Shown in pieces: positions 13,585 through 62,431 of a stretch of 64,000 bases of DNA. The stretch lies in contig NZ_CP038157.1 in the NCBI RefSeq assembly GCF_007641235.1, positions 62,001-126,000 on the forward strand, in the 5' to 3' direction. A program made the position numbers and the translations under genes. Below the pieces are notes generated by a model, which worked only from the letters and a program-made list of their open reading frames with translations, was not told the origin of the DNA and made no database searches. The number at the start of each line of letters is the position of its first letter. The first letter of the stretch is position 1. This DNA is from Corynebacterium sanguinis (GTDB taxonomy: Bacteria; Actinomycetota; Actinomycetes; Mycobacteriales; Mycobacteriaceae).

Positions 13585-13998
13585 ATGGGATTGATCGATT
13601 CTTTGCGCGCCTTGTTCGGTGCTGTGGCCGAAACCCCGCTGGTGGACTACCCCGCCGCGCCTGCCGAGCTCGCCGTCTCGACGCTCGAGGTGCGCACGTT
13701 GAACCTCTCGCCCGATACGGACGAGAAGCTAGTCGTGCTCACCCTTCCTTCAGGGGTGGCCGAGCGCGTCGCCGGTATGGATACGGCGCTGCGGGTCGTG
13801 CCGGAGGCTGGCCGGGCGGTCACCTTTGTGCGGGTAGGCTTTGACGCCGACCCGGCGCTGGACCCGAAGCTGGGGTGGATCATCCCCGTGACCGAGGCCA
13901 CCGCCGCCGAGCTGCGCGCCCTGCCGGAAGGGCCCGGCGAGCACGAGCTGACAAGCATCCACCTCGCGATCGTCGTGGAAGACGCCGCGGGAGCTTAG
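13585..13998 (+). CDS. Hypothetical protein
   Basis: Protein of 137 residues that I do not recognise. It is acidic overall, has no signal peptide or membrane segment, and reads as alternating beta strands (for example VLTLPSGVAERVAG and AVTFVRVGFDADP) ending in an acidic, proline-containing tail. Codon use matches its neighbours. It is a single gene divergent from the DUF2200 gene and convergent with the FAD dehydrogenase, sharing 4 bases at the stop codons. Confidence 0.6.
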   Translation: MGLIDSLRALFGAVAETPLVDYPAAPAELAVSTLEVRTLNLSPDTDEKLVVLTLPSGVAERVAGMDTALRVVPEAGRAVTFVRVGFDADPALDPKLGWIIPVTEATAAELRALPEGPGEHELTSIHLAIVVEDAAGA

Positions 13999-15692
13999 GC
14001 GCGCCCGAGCGCCTCGCCGACGCGCTTGCCCGAGTGGATGCAGCCACCCAGGAAGGTGCCCTCGAGCGCGTTCTTGCCGTGCATTCCGCCGCCGCCGAAG
14101 CCGGCGACCTCACCACAGGCGAAGAGGCCATCGAAGACCGAGCCGTCGGCGTGAAGCGCGCGGCCCGACAGGTCCGTCTCGATGCCGCCGAGCGTCTTGC
14201 GCGTCAGCACGTGGAGGCGGACGGCGATCAAGGGGCCCTTCTTCTCGTCCAGGATGCGGTGCGGCGGGTGGACACGCACGATCTTGTCGCCGAGGAACTG
14301 GCGCGCCATGCGGATGTAGTTGACCTGGATGTCCTTGGAGAAGGCGTTGGAGAGCTGGGCGTCGCGCTCGAGCAGCTGGCGTTCGACAAACTCGGCGTCG
14401 ATCTCGACGTCGCCAAGCTCGTTCATGCCCTTGACCAGGTCCTCGACCGTGTCCGCGGTGACCCAGTCTACGCCGTTCTTGTGGAACGCCTCGATCGCCA
14501 TGGGCGTGCCGGGGCCGATCTTGCCCAGCAGCTTCTTAATCTCCTTGTCCGTCAGGTCAGGGTTCTGCTCCGAACCGGAGAAGATGAACTCCTTATCTGC
14601 GATTGCCTGGTTGAGGATGAACCAGGAGTAGCCGTGGCCGGTGCGGCCGATGTGCGCGAGCGCGGCGAGGTTGTCGGAGCCCGGGAACAGGTGCGTCGGC
14701 AGGCGCTTGCCCTCGGCGTCCATCCAGATCGCGGACGGGCCGGGGATGATGCGGATGCCGTGGTTCGGCCAGATCGGATCCCAGTTGATCATGCCCTCCG
14801 GGTAGTGCCACATGCGGTCGGTGTTGACCAGGTTGGCGCCGGCTTTCTTGGCGATGTCGATGCCGCGCCCGTCGACGTACGCCGGCACGCCCGTGACCAT
14901 GTACTCGGGGCAGGGGCCCCAGCGATCATCCGGCCACATCGCGCGTACCTTATCCAGATTGCCACCGATGCCGCCGGTGGCGATGACGACTGCCGCGCCG
15001 CGGATCTCGAACGCGTCGCCCTCCTGCTTGTTGGAGGCGGCTCCGCGCACGGCGGGGTCGTCGTCAAGCACGATGCCCGTCACGCCTACGGCGCGCCCGG
15101 ATTCGACGATGACGTCGTCAACGCGGTGGCGGAAGCGGAATTCCACCTTGCCCTGCTTCTCCGCCTCCAGCAACGGCTCGCGGAAGACGCGCACAACCTC
15201 GGGGCCGGTGCCCCAGGTGACGTGGAAGCGCGGCACGGAGTTGCCGTGGCCGGAGGCGTCGCCGGAGCCGCGCTCGGCCCAGCCGATCGTCGGCAGCACG
15301 CGCAGGCCCAAGTTCTTCAGGTAGGAGTGCATGTCGTGGGCGGCGAAGCGGACGAACTCGCGGCCCCACTGGCGCGGCCACTTGTCGTTGTCGGACGCGT
15401 CGTAGTCCGCTGAATTCTCCCAGTCCATCCAGGCGAGGTCCTCGAAGTCGTTGACCCGCATCATCTTCTGCTCCGGGGAGCCGACCATGAACAGGCCGCC
15501 GAGGGACCAGAACGCCTGGCCGCCGAGGTTCTCTCGGCTTTCTTGATCCACGAAGATGACGTGGCGGCCGGCTTTGCTGGCCTCAAAGCCGGCGACGAGG
15601 CCGGCGAGCCCCGTGCCGACGATGATGACCGGAGTATCAGTGTTGTGTGGTGCGCGTGCGCCGTCAGAATTCATAAGAGGAACCATACTCAC
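13995..15692 (-). CDS. FAD-binding dehydrogenase (fumarate reductase/ketosteroid dehydrogenase fold)
   Basis: Flavoprotein of about 565 residues. The N-terminal dinucleotide-binding motif is VGTGLAGLVAGFEASKAG, followed by NLGGQAFWSLGG (substrate-domain entrance), VVIATGGIGGN in the middle, and a C-terminal FAD-binding signature CGEVAGFGGGGMHGKNALEGTFLGG. This layout fits the succinate dehydrogenase/fumarate reductase flavoprotein superfamily, in the branch often annotated as 3-ketosteroid delta-1-dehydrogenase-like. The substrate is unknown. The start is uncertain: GTG 15692, ATG 15686 and ATG 15674 are all in frame and none has a good ribosome binding site. It is divergent from sqdB with an 18-bp palindrome between them. 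Confidence 0.8.
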   Translation of the reverse strand: MSMVPLMNSDGARAPHNTDTPVIIVGTGLAGLVAGFEASKAGRHVIFVDQESRENLGGQAFWSLGGLFMVGSPEQKMMRVNDFEDLAWMDWENSADYDASDNDKWPRQWGREFVRFAAHDMHSYLKNLGLRVLPTIGWAERGSGDASGHGNSVPRFHVTWGTGPEVVRVFREPLLEAEKQGKVEFRFRHRVDDVIVESGRAVGVTGIVLDDDPAVRGAASNKQEGDAFEIRGAAVVIATGGIGGNLDKVRAMWPDDRWGPCPEYMVTGVPAYVDGRGIDIAKKAGANLVNTDRMWHYPEGMINWDPIWPNHGIRIIPGPSAIWMDAEGKRLPTHLFPGSDNLAALAHIGRTGHGYSWFILNQAIADKEFIFSGSEQNPDLTDKEIKKLLGKIGPGTPMAIEAFHKNGVDWVTADTVEDLVKGMNELGDVEIDAEFVERQLLERDAQLSNAFSKDIQVNYIRMARQFLGDKIVRVHPPHRILDEKKGPLIAVRLHVLTRKTLGGIETDLSGRALHADGSVFDGLFACGEVAGFGGGGMHGKNALEGTFLGGCIHSGKRVGEALGRA

Positions 15693-15713
15693 ATGATGCG
15701 ACTATCGCGTTAG

Positions 15714-15731
15714 ATTTTTCGTCCGAAAAAT
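15714..15731. promoter_or_regulatory. 18-bp palindrome ATTTTTCG-TC-CGAAAAAT, candidate operator
   Basis: Perfect 8-bp inverted repeat around a 2-base centre in the divergent region between the FAD dehydrogenase and sqdB. Its distance, 21 bases from the start of the dehydrogenase, would block or overlap its promoter. A second, imperfect inverted pair (CGTTCAC near 15733 and GTGAACG near 15790) lies closer to sqdB. The A/T-rich arms are unusual for this genome. The binding protein is unknown. Confidence 0.45.
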
Positions 15732-15856
15732 GTCACCTGACGTTCACCTGCTTCCACTCAGCAACGCTTAAGAATCACAGGTAACGTGAACGAGAAGCCC
15801 GCGCCCCGTGCCGGGCAGTTTAATGCTTAATGCGTGAAGTAGAAAGGTTGCCAAAA

Positions 15857-17053
15857 GTGAAGATTGCGATTCTGGGCGGAGACGGATTCTGTGGCTGGCC
15901 CGCGTCCCTCCACCTCTCTGACCTCGGTCACGACGTGATCATCGTGGACAACCTCTCACGGCGCCGCATCGATGAGGAGCTCGGCGCAGAGTCTTTGACC
16001 CCCATTGCGTCTATCGACGAGCGCCTTGCTGCGTGGAAGGAGGTATCCGGCAAGGAGATCGGCTTCCGCAACATCGACGTCGCCCAGGACTACGAGGGTC
16101 TGTTCGACTTCATCCAGGAGTTCAAGCCGGACGCCGTAGTGCACTTCGCCGAGCAGCGCGCCGCGCCGTACTCGATGAAAAACCCGCGCACGAAGCGCTA
16201 CACCATTGACAACAACGTCAATGCCACGCACAACCTGCTCGTAGCCATCGTCGAATCCGGCCTGGACATCCACGTTGTCCACCTCGGCACGATGGGTGTC
16301 TACGGCTACGGCACCGCCGGGATGAAGATCCCGGAGGGCTACCTCGACATCAAGGTCGATACCGACGAGGGCACCACCGTTGAACAGCAGATTCTCTACC
16401 CCACCAACCCGGGGTCGGTCTACCACCTGACCAAGGTGCTGGACCAGAACCTGTTCGCGTACTTTGCCAAGAACGACGAGCTGCGCATCACCGACCTGCA
16501 CCAGGGCATCATCTGGGGCACCCACACCCCGCAGACCGAGCGCGACGAGCGACTAATTAACCGCTTCGACTACGACGGCGATTACGGCACAGTGCTCAAC
16601 CGCTTCCTCATGCAGGCGGCGATTGGCTACCCGCTGACCGTTCACGGCACGGGTGGGCAGACCCGCGGCTTCATCCACATCCGCGACATGGTCAAGTGCA
16701 TCGAGATCGCCCTGGAGAACCCGCCGGCGCGCGGCGAGCGGGTGTTGATCCTGAACCAGATGACGGAAACCCACCGCGTTCGCGAGCTCGCGGAGCTGGT
16801 TTCGCGCCTGTCCGGCACCGAGTTCGCGCTGGTGCCCAACCCGCGCAAGGAGGCCGACGAGAACGAGCTGCACGTCACGAACGACACCTTCCTCGACCTC
16901 GGCCTGAAGCCGACAAAGCTGGAGGAGGGCCTGCTGCAGGAGGTCGAGGACGTGGCCAAGCACTACGCGCACCGCGTGGACCGCACGAAGATCCCGGCGC
17001 GCTCGCTGTGGACCCGCAACCAGTCTGAGGGCGTCCCCAGCGGCGAGAAGTAG
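15857..17053 (+). CDS. sqdB: UDP-sulfoquinovose synthase
   Basis: NAD-dependent enzyme of the extended SDR fold that makes UDP-sulfoquinovose from UDP-glucose and sulfite, the head-group donor of the sulfolipid SQDG. Similarity to plant SQD1 runs through the whole protein: GGDGFCGW (residues 7-14), ESLTPIASI, HFAEQRAAPYSM with Arg101, LGTMGVYG with Thr145, and YHLTK with Tyr189 and Lys193 as the SDR pair. ELGAESLTPIAS, NRFDYDGDYGTVLNRF and GKGGQTRG-like GTGGQTRGFIHIRD are sulfolipid-synthase features not seen in GalE. I choose GTG 15857 (398 residues) because AGAAAGG lies 9 bases upstream; ATG 15830 is in frame without a ribosome binding site. The stop directly abuts the next ATG. Confidence 0.85.
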   Translation: MKIAILGGDGFCGWPASLHLSDLGHDVIIVDNLSRRRIDEELGAESLTPIASIDERLAAWKEVSGKEIGFRNIDVAQDYEGLFDFIQEFKPDAVVHFAEQRAAPYSMKNPRTKRYTIDNNVNATHNLLVAIVESGLDIHVVHLGTMGVYGYGTAGMKIPEGYLDIKVDTDEGTTVEQQILYPTNPGSVYHLTKVLDQNLFAYFAKNDELRITDLHQGIIWGTHTPQTERDERLINRFDYDGDYGTVLNRFLMQAAIGYPLTVHGTGGQTRGFIHIRDMVKCIEIALENPPARGERVLILNQMTETHRVRELAELVSRLSGTEFALVPNPRKEADENELHVTNDTFLDLGLKPTKLEEGLLQEVEDVAKHYAHRVDRTKIPARSLWTRNQSEGVPSGEK

Positions 17054-18190
17054 ATGCGCATCGCCCTGTTCACGGAGGTTTTCCTCCCCAAGATCGACGG
17101 CATTGTCACCCGCGTGACCCGCACGCTCGATCAGCTGGCAGAGCTTGGCCACGAGGTGCTCATTTTCGCCCCCGGCAAGGCGCCCGCCAGCTACGCCGGT
17201 TTCGAGGTCGTGCGCATGCCCTCCGTCCCCTTTTGGCCGATCTACCCGGAGATTCAGGTCGGTCTGCCGACCCCGGGGGTGTTCCGCCGCCTCAAGGAGT
17301 TCAACCCGGACGTGGTCCACGTGGTCAACCCGATGTGGCTGGCCGGGGCGGCGGCGCTCGTCGCCGAGCGGATGGGGCTGCCGATCCTGGGGTCCTTTCA
17401 CACCGACGTGCCCGAGTACACGGTTCGCCTCGGCGCGGGGTGGCTGGCCGGGCCGTCGAAGTGGGGCATCCGCCAGTTTCACGGCAGGGCGCAGGTCAAC
17501 CTGGTCACCTCCGCGCCAATGCTGGACAAGGCCGCCGAGTACCGCATTGGCAACGTCGACGTCTGGCCGAAGGCAGTGGACACGCAGAGCTTCAGCCCGG
17601 ACAAGCGCACCCGAGAGATGCGCTCGCGGCTTAGCGACGGCCACCCCGACGCCCCCCTTGTCACCTACATCGGCCGGATTTCTGCCGAGAAGTCGACCGA
17701 GCGCACGCTCGGCATCATGGAGGCGGTGCGCAAGTCGGTCCCCGACGCCCGCCTCGCGCTGATCGGCGCCGGGCCGCAGCTCGACCAGCTGCGCCGCACG
17801 ATGGACCGCGACTGGGTTACCTTCACGGGCTACCTCTCCGGCGACGAGTTGCACAAGGCGTACGCTTCGGGCGACGCGCTGATCTTCCCCTCGACGACGG
17901 AGACGCTGGGGTTCGCGGCGCTTGAGGCCTTCGCTTCGGGCGTGCCGGTTGTCGGCGCTCACGCGGGCGGTCTGCCCTACGTCATCGACGACGGCGTCAC
18001 CGGGTTCCTGGTTGATCCTGGGGAGCCGGATGAGCGCTGGGCCCGCCCTATCATCGAGCTGTTGACGCGGCCTGAACTGCGAGAGTACATGTCGGGCGCG
18101 GCGCGCGAGGAGGCGCTGAAGTGGTCGTGGCGCACGGCGACGGAGCGCCTGGTGGAGTTCTATGAGGAAGCGCGGGCGTCGAAAAGTTAG
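17054..18190 (+). CDS. sqdX: GT4 glycosyltransferase, probable sulfoquinovosyltransferase
   Basis: Retaining glycosyltransferase of 378 residues in the GT-B fold. It opens with MRIALFTEVFLPKIDGIVTRV, which is close to SqdX/SQD2, and has the GT4 nucleotide-sugar region IGRISAEKSTER, IGAGPQ and FPSTTETLGFAALEA with the E-x7-E pair. SqdX moves sulfoquinovose from UDP-sulfoquinovose to diacylglycerol at the membrane. Corynebacterial phospholipid mannosyltransferases (MgtA/PimB group) are related, so family membership alone does not fix the donor. Direct abutment to sqdB (TAG-ATG, no gap) is the main reason for this assignment. Confidence 0.72.
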   Translation: MRIALFTEVFLPKIDGIVTRVTRTLDQLAELGHEVLIFAPGKAPASYAGFEVVRMPSVPFWPIYPEIQVGLPTPGVFRRLKEFNPDVVHVVNPMWLAGAAALVAERMGLPILGSFHTDVPEYTVRLGAGWLAGPSKWGIRQFHGRAQVNLVTSAPMLDKAAEYRIGNVDVWPKAVDTQSFSPDKRTREMRSRLSDGHPDAPLVTYIGRISAEKSTERTLGIMEAVRKSVPDARLALIGAGPQLDQLRRTMDRDWVTFTGYLSGDELHKAYASGDALIFPSTTETLGFAALEAFASGVPVVGAHAGGLPYVIDDGVTGFLVDPGEPDERWARPIIELLTRPELREYMSGAAREEALKWSWRTATERLVEFYEEARASKS

Positions 18191-18239
18191 CAGCGCTTGA
18201 GTTTTGCGTCTCGGCGCGGGCTATGTTGTTATTGCCGAC

Positions 18240-18653
18240 ATGACAACATTTAGAGATATTTACTTGCTCGTGGCCCGCATTCTGCTCGGTGTCGTCCTCA
18301 TCGCCCACGGCTGGCAGAAGTTCAACGAATGGACCCTACCCGGCACCGCCGAGGCGTTCGCCGGCATGGGCGTGCCGCTGCCTGAGGTCACCAGCGCGAT
18401 CGCCGCGATCGTCGAACTTGTCGGCGGCCTGCTCATCATCGCCGGCGCGTTTACGCCCATCGTGGGCGTGATCGTGGCCCTGCAGATGCTCGGTGCCTAC
18501 TTCTTCGCTCACATGGGCAACGGCGTGTTCGTGGACAACGGCGGCTTCGAGCTCGTCGGCGTCATCGCCGCCGCATCCCTGGCGCTTGCCGGCGCCGGCG
18601 CGGGCCGTTTCAGCGCGGATCAGCTAATCGACACCCGCCGCGCGACGCGCTAG
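18240..18653 (+). CDS. DoxX family membrane protein
   Basis: Small membrane protein of 137 residues with four hydrophobic segments. The family pattern is LLVARILLGVVLIAHGWQKF followed by GMGVPLPEV and ELVGGLLIIAGAFTPIVGV. I place the start at the ATG at 18240; a TATGTT hexamer 12 bases before it may be its -10 box. DoxX proteins are linked to thiol and redox homeostasis in mycobacteria, but the activity here is unknown. It is convergent with gapB with a 4-base overlap. A second DoxX protein is at 38767-39174. Confidence 0.85.
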   Translation: MTTFRDIYLLVARILLGVVLIAHGWQKFNEWTLPGTAEAFAGMGVPLPEVTSAIAAIVELVGGLLIIAGAFTPIVGVIVALQMLGAYFFAHMGNGVFVDNGGFELVGVIAAASLALAGAGAGRFSADQLIDTRRATR

Positions 18654-20116
18654 CGAATTTCGCTCGGCTCTTTGCGCGCCGGGAAGATCTCCGGGCGCAC
18701 GCCCGCGATGTCCTCGACGATGCGAACCACCTGGTTGGAGTAACCGTACTCGTTGTCGTACCAGACGTAGAGCACCAGGTGGTTGCCGGAGGCGATCGTC
18801 GCCAGGCCGTCGACCACACCGGCGTGCGTGGAGCCGAGCAGGTCCGTCGAGACGATGTCCGGGGAGTTGATGTAATCAATCTGCTGGCGCAGGCTGGAAT
18901 CGGTGGACACGCGACGCAGGAACTCGTTGACCTCGTCCTTTTCCACCTCTTTTTCCAGCTCGAGGTTGAGCACGGCCATGGACACGTCCGGCGTGGGCAC
19001 GCGGATTGCGTTGCCGGTCAGCTTGCCCTCCAGCTCGGGCAGCGCCTTGGACACGGCCTTGGCGGCGCCGGTTTCGGTGAGCACCATGTTGAGCGCTGCG
19101 GCGCGGCCGCGGCGCGGGCCCTTGTGGTAGTTATCAGCCAGGTTCTGGTCGTTGGTGTAGGCGTGGACCGTCTCCACGTGACCGTGGCGCACGCCGTAGC
19201 GGTCGTTGATCACCTTCAGCACCGGGGTGATGCCGTTGGTCGTGCAGGATGCGGCCGAGATGATGTTGTCCGACTCATCGTTGGTGATGTCGGAGTGGTT
19301 GACGCCGTAGACAATGTTGCGCACATCGCCCTTGCCCGGGGCGGTGAGCAGGGCCTTCTGCACGCCCTTGGACTGAAGGTGCTGGGACAGCCCCGCGCGG
19401 TCGCGCCAGCGACCGGTGTTGTCGACCACGATGGCGTCGTTAATGCCGTAGGCGGTGTAGTCGATCGAGGAGGGGTCGTCCGAGTAGATCATCTGGATGG
19501 CGGTGCCGTTCGCCCAGATGATTTCCTTTTCGTGGTCGACGGTGATGGTGCCGTTGAAGGGGCCGTGGATGGAATCGCGGCGCAGCAGCGAGGCGCGCTT
19601 GACAATGTCGTCGTCGCCCTTCTTGCGTACCACCACCGCGCGCAGGCGCACGCCGCCGTAGGTCGCCTCGCGGGCGACCAGGATGCGCGCGAGCAGGCGG
19701 CCGATGCGGCCGAAGCCGTAGAGCACCACGTCGCGCGGCTCGGTCTGCTTCTCGCCCCCGATCGCGCCGGCGAGCTCCTGCTCGAGGAAGGAACGCAGGT
19801 CCTGGCCCTCGCTGCGCGAGTAGTTCTTCGCCAGGCGGCCCAGGTCGATGGAGCTGGTGCCCAGGTCGAGCTGGACCAGCTCCTTGAGGATCGGCAGGGT
19901 CTCATCCAGCGGAAGCTCGCGCTCGACGACGCGACGTGCGTAGCGGTGCGCCTTGATGATGTCGACGTCAGTGACGCCGACGAGGAGGCGACCATAGATC
20001 GACGTCACCGCGTTGTTCTCGCGGTGCAGCTGGCTGATCAGCGGCAGCATCTCCTGTGCGAGCGTTAGCTTGTGGTTCCAGTCGTTCTGGGTCTCGGTCG
20101 ATGAAGTCGCAGTCAC
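18650..20116 (-). CDS. gapB: Glyceraldehyde-3-phosphate dehydrogenase, GapB type
   Basis: GAPDH of 488 residues, far longer than the usual 330 or so because of an N-terminal extension of about 125 residues. That length and layout match the corynebacterial GapB enzyme, thought to work in the gluconeogenic direction with NADP(H). The Rossmann segment is YGFGRIGRLLARIL, and the catalytic cysteine is in ISAASCTTNGITPVL. Later signatures are NIVYGVNHSD, the HVETVHAYTNDQN loop and WYDNEYGYSNQVV at the C-terminus. The ATG lies close to an A/G-rich ribosome binding site (AAAAGGAAGC). It follows the 3-hydroxyisobutyryl-CoA hydrolase gene after 122 bases. Confidence 0.92.
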   Translation of the reverse strand: MTATSSTETQNDWNHKLTLAQEMLPLISQLHRENNAVTSIYGRLLVGVTDVDIIKAHRYARRVVERELPLDETLPILKELVQLDLGTSSIDLGRLAKNYSRSEGQDLRSFLEQELAGAIGGEKQTEPRDVVLYGFGRIGRLLARILVAREATYGGVRLRAVVVRKKGDDDIVKRASLLRRDSIHGPFNGTITVDHEKEIIWANGTAIQMIYSDDPSSIDYTAYGINDAIVVDNTGRWRDRAGLSQHLQSKGVQKALLTAPGKGDVRNIVYGVNHSDITNDESDNIISAASCTTNGITPVLKVINDRYGVRHGHVETVHAYTNDQNLADNYHKGPRRGRAAALNMVLTETGAAKAVSKALPELEGKLTGNAIRVPTPDVSMAVLNLELEKEVEKDEVNEFLRRVSTDSSLRQQIDYINSPDIVSTDLLGSTHAGVVDGLATIASGNHLVLYVWYDNEYGYSNQVVRIVEDIAGVRPEIFPARKEPSEIR

Positions 20117-45111: not shown

Positions 45112-46053
45112 CTACATTTCCGCTTCGTACTCACGCAGGATCGCCTTGATGGCGGTGTAGAGCGCCGGGCCGTACTTCTCGTCACGCAAACCGAAGTCGA
45201 CGTTGGCGGGGATGTATCCCGCCGGGTTGCCCAGGTCGTGGCGCTTGCCCTCGTGCACCACGACGTGGACGGGGTGGCCCTCCTGGATCATCAGCTCGAT
45301 CGCGTCGGTGAGCTGCAGCTCGCCTCCCTTGCCGGGGGTGATGCGGCGCAGCGCGTCGAAGATGGCGCGGTCCAGCAGGTAGCGCCCCGTTGCGACGAGC
45401 GTCGACGGCGCCTCCTCCTTGGCGGGCTTTTCCACCATGCCGCGGACCTTCTTCACCGCGAACCCGTCGAACGCGGCGTCGTGCTGGGCGTCGATGTCCT
45501 CGACGTCGAACACTCCGTAGTTGAAAACCTCGTCCGGGGTGACGTTGAACGCGCAGAGCACGGAACCGCCGAGCTCCGCGCGCACGCGCGCCATCTTGTC
45601 CATCACTCCGGTGGGCAGAACGAGGTCGTCGGGAAGCATGACCGCCACAACATCCTCGTCGTCGTCGAGCGCCGCCTCGGCGCAGCCGACCGCGTGGCCG
45701 AGGCCGAGCGGCTTCTCCTGGATCACCGACACGGCGTCGATCAGCTTCGACGCGCGCGCGACCTTTTCCACCTGGGCGGTCTTGCCGCGCTCGGTGAGCG
45801 TCTCGCACAGGGACTCAAACTCGCCGAAGTGGCGCATGATCTCCTGCTTCTCCGGGGCGGTGATGATCGCCAGGCGCCTCGCTCCCGCCTCGGCGGCCTC
45901 CTCGGCGATGAGCTCGATGCCGGGCGTGTCCACCACAGGCAACAGCTCCTTCGGCACCGTCTTCGTCGCTGGCAGGAACCTCGTTCCCATGCCGGCCGCC
46001 GGCACAACGACGGTTCTGATTCCGGGCGAGGGGTTCTCACTGGTAGTCCGCAT
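45112..46053 (-). CDS. galU: UTP-glucose-1-phosphate uridylyltransferase
   Basis: Makes UDP-glucose from UTP and glucose-1-phosphate. The 313 residues have the pyrophosphorylase loop PAAGMGTRFLPATKTVPKELLPVVD, QEKPLGLGHAV and VMLPDDLVLP, and a C-terminal domain with KRHDLGNPAGYIPANV. UDP-glucose feeds cell-wall arabinogalactan and trehalose, and is also the substrate of the SqdB enzyme in this window. It is the first gene of the galU-glp-rimJ-glpR run on the minus strand, divergent from the formyl-THF cyclo-ligase. Confidence 0.95.
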   Translation of the reverse strand: MRTTSENPSPGIRTVVVPAAGMGTRFLPATKTVPKELLPVVDTPGIELIAEEAAEAGARRLAIITAPEKQEIMRHFGEFESLCETLTERGKTAQVEKVARASKLIDAVSVIQEKPLGLGHAVGCAEAALDDDEDVVAVMLPDDLVLPTGVMDKMARVRAELGGSVLCAFNVTPDEVFNYGVFDVEDIDAQHDAAFDGFAVKKVRGMVEKPAKEEAPSTLVATGRYLLDRAIFDALRRITPGKGGELQLTDAIELMIQEGHPVHVVVHEGKRHDLGNPAGYIPANVDFGLRDEKYGPALYTAIKAILREYEAEM

Positions 46054-61732: not shown

Positions 61733-62431
61733 ATGAAACGCCCCCTTCTCGCCGCGCTTGCGGCGACCCTGACGCTGTCGGCCGCCGCCGTCCCCGCCTC
61801 CGCTATCACCGTCAATCTCGACGGCGTGCCCGCGAGCAGCGATATCGAGATCGCGAACGCTCTCGCCTTAGCCGTGGGCAAGATTTACACCAACGGTGCC
61901 ACGTTCACCGCGGGCGACCACTCCATTGTGTTTGACCCCCGAGCCGAGGAGCAGCGCCTGAACCTTCCCGCCGAAACGATCCAGATCGTCCCGCCCGAAG
62001 GCTCCGACACCGTGGTCTACCAGACGGGCGCGACCTCTGATGGCCGCACCGTGGTCACTCCCGCGACAGGCCGCCTGAGTTCCGGTTTCGGCCCCCGCGG
62101 GGGACGCATCCACCAGGGCATCGACATCGCCAACGACTCCGGCTCGCCCATCTATGCGGTAATGGACGGCACCGTCATCAACGCCGGCCCGGCCCAGGGC
62201 TTCGGTAACTGGGTAGTCATCAAGCACGATGGTGGCGAGGTCTCGGTCTACGGCCACATGCGCAACTACAGCGTCTCGGTAGGCCAGCGCGTCTCCGCCG
62301 GGGAGCAGATCGCGCAAATCGGCAACGAAGGCCGCTCCACTGGGCCTCACCTCCACTTCGAGATCAGGCCGGACGGTGTCACACCCGTCGATCCGCAGGT
62401 CTGGCTCAACAAGCAGGGCATCCGCATCTAA
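61733..62431 (+). CDS. M23 family metallopeptidase, copy 2
   Basis: Secreted endopeptidase of 232 residues with a clear signal peptide (MKRPLLAALAATLTLSAAAVPASA, cleaved near residue 24). A linker of about 75 residues precedes the LytM domain, with SGFGPRGGRIHQGIDIANDSG (zinc His and Asp), VYGHMRNY and GPHLHFEIRPDG (HxH). It is a paralogue of copy 1, sharing the domain almost segment by segment, but not the N-terminal part. It has its own promoter region and is convergent with pcrA (7-base gap). Confidence 0.9.
   Translation: MKRPLLAALAATLTLSAAAVPASAITVNLDGVPASSDIEIANALALAVGKIYTNGATFTAGDHSIVFDPRAEEQRLNLPAETIQIVPPEGSDTVVYQTGATSDGRTVVTPATGRLSSGFGPRGGRIHQGIDIANDSGSPIYAVMDGTVINAGPAQGFGNWVVIKHDGGEVSVYGHMRNYSVSVGQRVSAGEQIAQIGNEGRSTGPHLHFEIRPDGVTPVDPQVWLNKQGIRI

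Follow-up and report, generated by a model that had tools for sequence, protein, structure and literature searches.

A conserved sqdB-sqdX-like gene pair in Corynebacterium sanguinis points to a sulfoquinovosyl lipid in corynebacteria

Here we analysed a stretch of 64,000 nucleotides of Corynebacterium sanguinis (positions 62,001 to 126,000 of contig NZ_CP038157.1, in the following called the window; the host genome is one contig of 2.36 Mb), which carries sqdB and, directly behind it, a gene for an sqdX-like glycosyltransferase (GT). The best reading of this pair is the synthesis of sulfoquinovosyl diacylglycerol (SQDG) or another sulfoquinovosyl lipid. The identity of the two genes, the conserved active site and the clade of SqdB, and the co-occurrence and adjacency of both genes in the genus are established in this study, and judged from these sequence features the pair likely makes SQDG. 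The two genes are:

15857..17053, + strand: sqdB, UDP-sulfoquinovose synthase; GTG start, TAG stop at 17051-17053, 398 aa, match to SQD1 (1qrr), conserved active site, Sinorhizobium meliloti-type clade.
17054..18190, + strand: sqdX-like GT4 glycosyltransferase; ATG start, stop at 18188-18190, 378 aa, assigned to GT4/GT1 domains by Pfam; probable sulfoquinovosyltransferase onto diacylglycerol (DAG).

Both frames are open over their full length, and zero bases separate them, the TAG of sqdB abutting the ATG of the GT gene as an earlier reading of the letters without database searches (the sequence-only reading) had described. For sqdB, an in-frame ATG at 15830 is an alternative start, and AGAAAGG is found by direct reading 9 bases ahead of the GTG at 15857. 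The corynebacterial enzyme MgtA (GDP-mannose:glucuronosyl-DAG mannosyltransferase), which likewise belongs to the GT4 family and uses a lipid acceptor, has a paralog of its type in the same genome. We searched 242 Corynebacterium genomes for SqdB (E <= 1e-40) and for the GT (E <= 1e-75, a threshold that leaves out the MgtA paralog, because the latter reaches only 2e-59 in its own genome). SqdB was matched in 86 and the GT in 85 genomes, with identical genome lists save for G219; in all 85 genomes with the GT its gene follows sqdB immediately on the same strand, with 2-107 bases between the matched ends, and at this threshold it occurs only in genomes with sqdB. Among the 46 fetched Corynebacterium loci (L088-L133) the GT adjoins sqdB in 45 (20 bases away in L132), G219 being the exception, and the genes flanking the pair vary. 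That the GT uses the product of SqdB is supported most strongly by this exact co-occurrence. Full-length matches in other genomes share 76-99% (SqdB) and 50-90% (GT) identity with the window proteins, and the closest named relatives are Corynebacterium species, C. lipophiloflavum for sqdB (96%) and C. qintianiae for the GT (90%). Partial matches were obtained for SqdB in G048 (227-406) and in G204 (37-404, at a contig end), and for the GT in G236 (1-200), G130 (1-262, at a contig end) and G173 (1-318). In G219 (locus L133) the GT is without a match and SqdB is reduced to a fragment (query 282-390, 67%), which is probably a relic of pair loss.

Searching the PDB with sqdB returned Arabidopsis SQD1 (1qrr, E 4e-101, query 11-395 of 407), with UDP-glucuronic acid decarboxylase as the next family far behind (E 1e-12). 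In the 398-residue numbering, E99, Q100, R101, T145, M146, Y149, S187, Y189, H190 and K193 of the window SqdB align with E99, Q100, R101, T145, M146, Y149, S180, Y182, H183 and K186 of SQD1, so that the positions Arg101, Thr145, Tyr189 and Lys193 named by the sequence-only reading are correct. These four residues, of which Arg belongs to the EQR motif and the others form the Thr-Tyr-Lys triad, are kept in 14 out of 14 aligned Corynebacterium rows, window included. They are not equally strict, as the EQR Arg is absent from three of the 41 rows of SqdB group 1 (defined below) and the Thr can be exchanged in Agl3. For Agl3, the UDP-sulfoquinovose synthase of Sulfolobus, the excerpts of PMC4388408 state that activity is lost on alanine exchange of His95, Arg101, Met145, Tyr182 or Lys186 but not in T144A. 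The window SqdB very probably makes UDP-sulfoquinovose.

Regarding its origin, the window SqdB is 67.8% identical to SqdB of S. meliloti, 47% to SQD1, 43-46% to nine cyanobacterial rows and 44-48% to six Bacillota rows. Weissenmayer et al. in 2000 (cited in PMC3972451) reportedly disrupted an S. meliloti gene, which we take to be the sqdB compared here, and found it essential for SQDG. The SqdB tree comprised 76 rows, including 14 out of 86 Corynebacterium SqdB (window included) and hand-picked other loci, and was built by a quick method with the Shimodaira-Hasegawa-like approximate likelihood ratio test (SH-aLRT) as its only support. It was rooted on two epimerase-family proteins of the genome (L001 and L002; a third outgroup row, L003, was dropped as too short), and because of this rooting the apartness of SqdB from epimerases rests on the PDB search. 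A clustering with epimerases that do not use sulfite was looked for and did not appear, since the protein groups with S. meliloti SqdB and other epimerase families match far more weakly. The rows split into two groups, in agreement with the two SqdB clades described in the excerpts of PMC8227023; the branch that separates group 2 has a length of 1.53 and an SH-aLRT support of 100. Besides two alphaproteobacteria including S. meliloti, group 2 (33 rows) contains all 14 rows from Corynebacterium and 17 from other actinobacteria, one of these from a Rhodococcus plasmid. Plant SQD1 falls into group 1, along with the rows from cyanobacteria, Acidobacteriota, Bacillota and Chloroflexota and with 15 from other actinobacteria.

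Turning to the GT, we compared the protein with two reference sets, namely 13 cyanobacterial GT4 genes located at most 1.4 kb downstream of an SqdB gene, and 16 MgtA-like rows including the paralog from the same genome (L081). No search result names the cyanobacterial genes SqdX; we call them so because of their place after SqdB and the known sqdB-sqdX operon. The one SqdX-type row scanned (L203) was not hit by any NCBIfam model for SqdX. The window GT starts with MRIALFTEVFLPKIDGIVTR, cyanobacterial rows start for example with MRIALFTETFLPKVDGIVTR and MgtA-like rows for example with MRVAIVTESFLPQVNGVTNSV. Its identity is 43-45% to the 13 cyanobacterial rows, 41-42% to four Acidobacteriota and two Chloroflexota rows, 36-39% to six Bacillota rows and 33-36% to the 16 MgtA-like rows (34-35% to L081). 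The cyanobacterial profile gave 380.7 bits, compared to 295.6 for the MgtA-like profile, and scored higher in all 18 Corynebacterium GTs examined. At 22 columns diagnostic for SqdX-type versus MgtA-like proteins the window GT shows 16 SqdX, three MgtA and three other residues, and over the 18 Corynebacterium GTs the cells sum up to 302 SqdX, 42 MgtA and 52 other. In a tree of 64 rows these 18 GTs form one group (support 99/97), and the 16 MgtA-like rows form another (100/100). This tree was built from 18 of the 85 Corynebacterium GTs (window included), 25 out of 47 GT-bearing SqdB loci of other phyla, L139, L262, 15 of the 28 fetched MgtA-like loci of other genera together with L081, and three out of six other paralogs of the genome, with L085 (no match), L086 and L087 staying outside.

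Several results weigh against the assignment of the pair to SQDG synthesis. The root of the GT tree is unsafe, as the end branches of the three outgroup rows are long (3-4 changes per column); in the free tree the outgroup sits on the Corynebacterium branch and the Chloroflexota rows stand beside the MgtA-like ones. With the same long-branched outgroup, the approximately unbiased (AU) test gave p 0.142 for all SqdB-adjacent GTs as one clade and p 0.16 for Corynebacterium GTs plus MgtA-like rows as one clade, two groupings that are both absent from the free tree. Because neither grouping was rejected, our assignment of the GT leans on similarity, profiles, diagnostic columns and co-occurrence. 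A clustering with mannosyltransferases, which according to the sequence-only reading would speak against SqdX, is not what identity, profiles and columns indicate, but the rooted tree leaves room for it. On the side of SqdB, the window protein reaches 356.5 bits with the NCBIfam equivalog model NF041015 and stays under the cut-off of 575; since S. meliloti SqdB (332.1) and an actinobacterial group-1 SqdB (483.0) used as controls fail as well, this cut-off is narrower than the enzyme family. Furthermore, 33 out of 80 SqdB loci of other phyla hold no such GT in the fetched stretch, some stretches being short, compared to 47 that do, so that SqdB and GT are not always together.

A further point concerns a Glu of the active site (E148 in SQD1, E147 in Agl3), which is present in 41 out of 41 group-1 rows, while the 33 rows of group 2 show Val (32) or Ala (one). 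The loop following the catalytic Thr has the sequence GTMGEYG in SQD1, compared to GTMGVYGYG in the window SqdB, and because this two-residue insertion shifts the gap, the residue pairing is unsure: in one alignment residue 148 (16298-16300) is Val, whereas a second one sets the SQD1 Glu against Gly. Under either alignment Glu is absent in the window SqdB as well as in S. meliloti SqdB. This absence places the window SqdB in the alphaproteobacterial group and not in the plant SQD1 group; the plant SQD1 features claimed by the sequence-only reading therefore hold for the active site, except for one adjacent Glu, but not for the overall sequence, which is of the alphaproteobacterial type. According to the excerpts of PMC4388408, the Glu of Agl3 was proposed to aid dehydration, and its Ala mutant retained 12.4% activity. 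Since Glu is missing there, the mechanism of group-2 enzymes may differ at this step, and group 2 may carry out the dehydration another way.

Outside Corynebacterium, SqdB (E <= 1e-60) was detected in 46 out of 397 genomes of the order, four of them Corynebacterium, and in 99 out of 396 genomes of the phylum, with the window genome counted in each. Among 34 actinobacterial SqdB loci from other genera (L134-L167; genes called by a crude script) the window GT had a match in one, L139, of the same family and adjoining SqdB, and in genome G263 a more distant GT4 gene lies next to SqdB. A gene of cluster c7 is present in 20 of the 34 loci (GT2 domain in all three scanned members), and a gene of cluster c18 in 11 (the single scanned member is GtrA). 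Because these loci mostly hold c7 instead of an SqdX-like GT, an actinobacterial SqdB alone does not mean SQDG, whereas the arrangement of SqdB with this GT in Corynebacterium does point to it.

As a separate observation, nine of the 34 loci (L134, L142-L147, L163 and L164) combine SqdB with a c7 gene and a divergent c18 (GtrA cluster) gene, without SqdX, and seven of the nine also hold c12. L134 has a group-2 SqdB and its like loci have group-1 enzymes. This looks like an exchange of one clade for the other within the same gene cluster and may be taken as a hint that both clades make the same sugar, here for a polyprenyl-linked glycan.

Three other explanations of the corynebacterial pair have to be weighed. 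SqdB could make UDP-sulfoquinovose for a GT whose acceptor is a glycan, a polyprenol or a glycosylated lipid, giving a sulfoquinovosyl glycoconjugate and not SQDG. The composition of the other actinobacterial loci, with an SqdX-like GT in just one and c7 in 20 out of 34, agrees with such a use of the sugar nucleotide, as does the Sulfolobus case, where Agl3 supplies UDP-sulfoquinovose for glycoconjugates (excerpts of PMC4388408). Nevertheless, with an SqdX-like GT4 directly after sqdB in each of the 85 Corynebacterium loci, and with DAG described as the acceptor of SqdX/SQD2 in the excerpts of PMC8227023, we regard a glycoconjugate as an unlikely product.

Alternatively, the GT could be an MgtA or glucuronosyl-DAG-type lipid glycosyltransferase with UDP-glucuronic acid (UDP-GlcA) or GDP-mannose as donor that stands beside sqdB for another reason. 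Apart from the AU result for the MgtA-like grouping, the acceptance of UDP-GlcA by GT4 enzymes acting on DAG (excerpts of PMC8231724) is in line with this view. However, the genome has its separate MgtA-type gene, L081, located elsewhere between menD- and ubiE-like open reading frames (ORFs; named by eye), and the pair's GT was never encountered without sqdB in the 242 genomes; together with the profile scores and diagnostic columns, which favour SqdX, this makes an MgtA-type function quite improbable. The mgtA locus of C. glutamicum has the same menD/ubiE-type setting as L081. Finally, a decaying or silent pair without product could account for the SqdB fragment in G219, for the partial matches in the five further genomes and for the missing match to a sigma-70-like promoter in 15600-18800, but that scan covered a single promoter type for which shuffled controls averaged 0.3 matches, and the frames in the window are open and full-length, with full-length matches also in other genomes, so that decay appears extremely improbable.

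For the sulfoquinovosyl lipid, the following course can be proposed, of which the joint transcription, the reactions of both enzymes, DAG as acceptor, and the lipid with its role are inferred from the two genes. Both genes would probably form one transcription unit. SqdB with bound NAD+ would oxidise UDP-glucose at C4 and eliminate water to give a 4-keto-5,6-ene, to which sulfite would be added to yield UDP-sulfoquinovose; this is the mechanism proposed for SQD1 and Agl3, applied here from the conserved residues. At the cytoplasmic membrane, the SqdX-like GT would then move sulfoquinovose onto DAG. The resulting SQDG would be an acidic lipid free of phosphorus, which might replace phospholipids when phosphate is short, a role reported for other bacteria. 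Sulfite would come from the cysH-cysD-cysN route, and since these three genes are present, adjacent to each other in the host genome, sulfite can be made from sulfate. UDP-glucose could be supplied by a galU-like gene, which the sequence-only reading had seen in the same window and which is indeed found there, with galU (TIGR01099) as its best family at a score under the model's cut-off. Very doubtful, in our view, is the further idea that in pair-bearing corynebacteria the lipid does more than serve as bulk membrane material and that sulfoquinovosyl-DAG, beside or instead of glucuronosyl-DAG, serves as acidic anchor for an MgtA-type lipomannan start and thereby gives a sulfonated lipoglycan in the mycolate envelope.

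Compared to known systems, the pair shares with cyanobacterial SqdB-SqdX and plant SQD1-SQD2 the two-gene logic, the SqdX kind of GT and the SqdB catalytic residues, but its SqdB differs from the cyanobacterial one by clade, by lacking the Glu and by the insertion of two residues in the active-site loop. S. meliloti has an SqdB of the same clade, whereas its next gene is an annotated glycosyl transferase of 292 aa and not an SqdX-like GT4, and a search of the S. meliloti sqdB locus with the window GT gave no match at E <= 1e-5; the genes following sqdB presumably carry the names sqdD/sqdC. Pairs in Bacillota (Alicyclobacillus, Halobacillus, Pontibacillus and Salinicoccus), some of which make SQDG, resemble the present one in having a GT4 gene directly after SqdB in non-photosynthetic bacteria, while their proteins are more distant (six rows each, with the GT and SqdB identities given above). 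Agl3, likened here via its published description, performs the same reaction and has essential residues in common (excerpts of PMC4388408), but belongs to an archaeal cluster and serves glycoconjugates. Because the SqdB clade of alphaproteobacteria is also found in some cyanobacteria, according to the excerpts of PMC8227023, the mix of an alphaproteobacterial-type SqdB with an SqdX-type GT may not be unique to corynebacteria.

It is already known that SQDG occurs in non-photosynthetic bacteria and that actinobacteria, including a mycobacterium, carry SqdB genes. In the tree in the excerpts of PMC4388408, M. vanbaalenii, P. freudenreichii and S. erythraea are represented by UDP-sulfoquinovose synthases. 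In addition, proteins from C. mycetoides and from C. appendicis already bear the name UDP-sulfoquinovose synthase at NCBI. Among the literature matches listed, with most subscription journals outside the coverage, there was no paper on SQDG in Corynebacterium. The contributions of this study are the genus-wide, always-paired distribution, the mixed composition of the pair (SqdB of the alphaproteobacterial and GT of the SqdX type) and the distinction of this GT from the MgtA-type gene. Mycolates, phosphatidylinositol mannosides and glucuronosyl lipids are the components for which the corynebacterial envelope is mainly known. Provided that the pair does yield the lipid, around a third of the sampled Corynebacterium genomes (85 out of 242) could add a sulfonated phosphorus-free lipid to this envelope, with a bearing on phosphate economy, on the charge of the envelope and on sulfoquinovose that non-photosynthetic bacteria would release as a nutrient. 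Moreover, pair-positive and pair-negative species within one genus allow a direct comparison.

The neighbouring genes and the galU-like gene of the window are:

13995-15692, - strand: FAD-binding dehydrogenase (NF009472), upstream of sqdB.
18204..18653, + strand: small membrane protein of the DoxX family (PF07681, E 4e-22), 13 bases downstream of the GT gene.
18650-20116, - strand: glyceraldehyde-3-phosphate dehydrogenase-like ORF, downstream, named by eye.
45112-46053, - strand: galU-like UTP-glucose-1-phosphate uridylyltransferase; TIGR01099 232.6 bits versus a cut-off of 326.8, start codon picked by the analyst.

The DoxX gene was considered as a third pathway gene and rejected: of the 45 fetched Corynebacterium loci that contain both sqdB and the GT gene, just five have a DoxX match downstream, and it is therefore probably no required part. 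An MmpL protein as dedicated sulfolipid exporter was considered as well, with MMPL and TetR-type genes located near the pair in 15 out of 46 loci (e.g., L118, 3957-6389), yet the MmpL genes are unspecific; as MmpL was matched in 198 of the 242 genomes, at least 112 of them without sqdB, and none lies beside the window pair, we do not count it as evidence.

Two minor observations concern relatives of the window SqdB. A database protein (P0116) with 84% identity to it is labelled as UDP-glucose 4-epimerase of Streptococcus thermophilus and is probably a contaminant with a wrong name. On the 523 kb plasmid of Rhodococcus qingshengii (L169), a group-2 SqdB has a SulP anion transporter and a gene of the alkyl sulfatase type in its vicinity.

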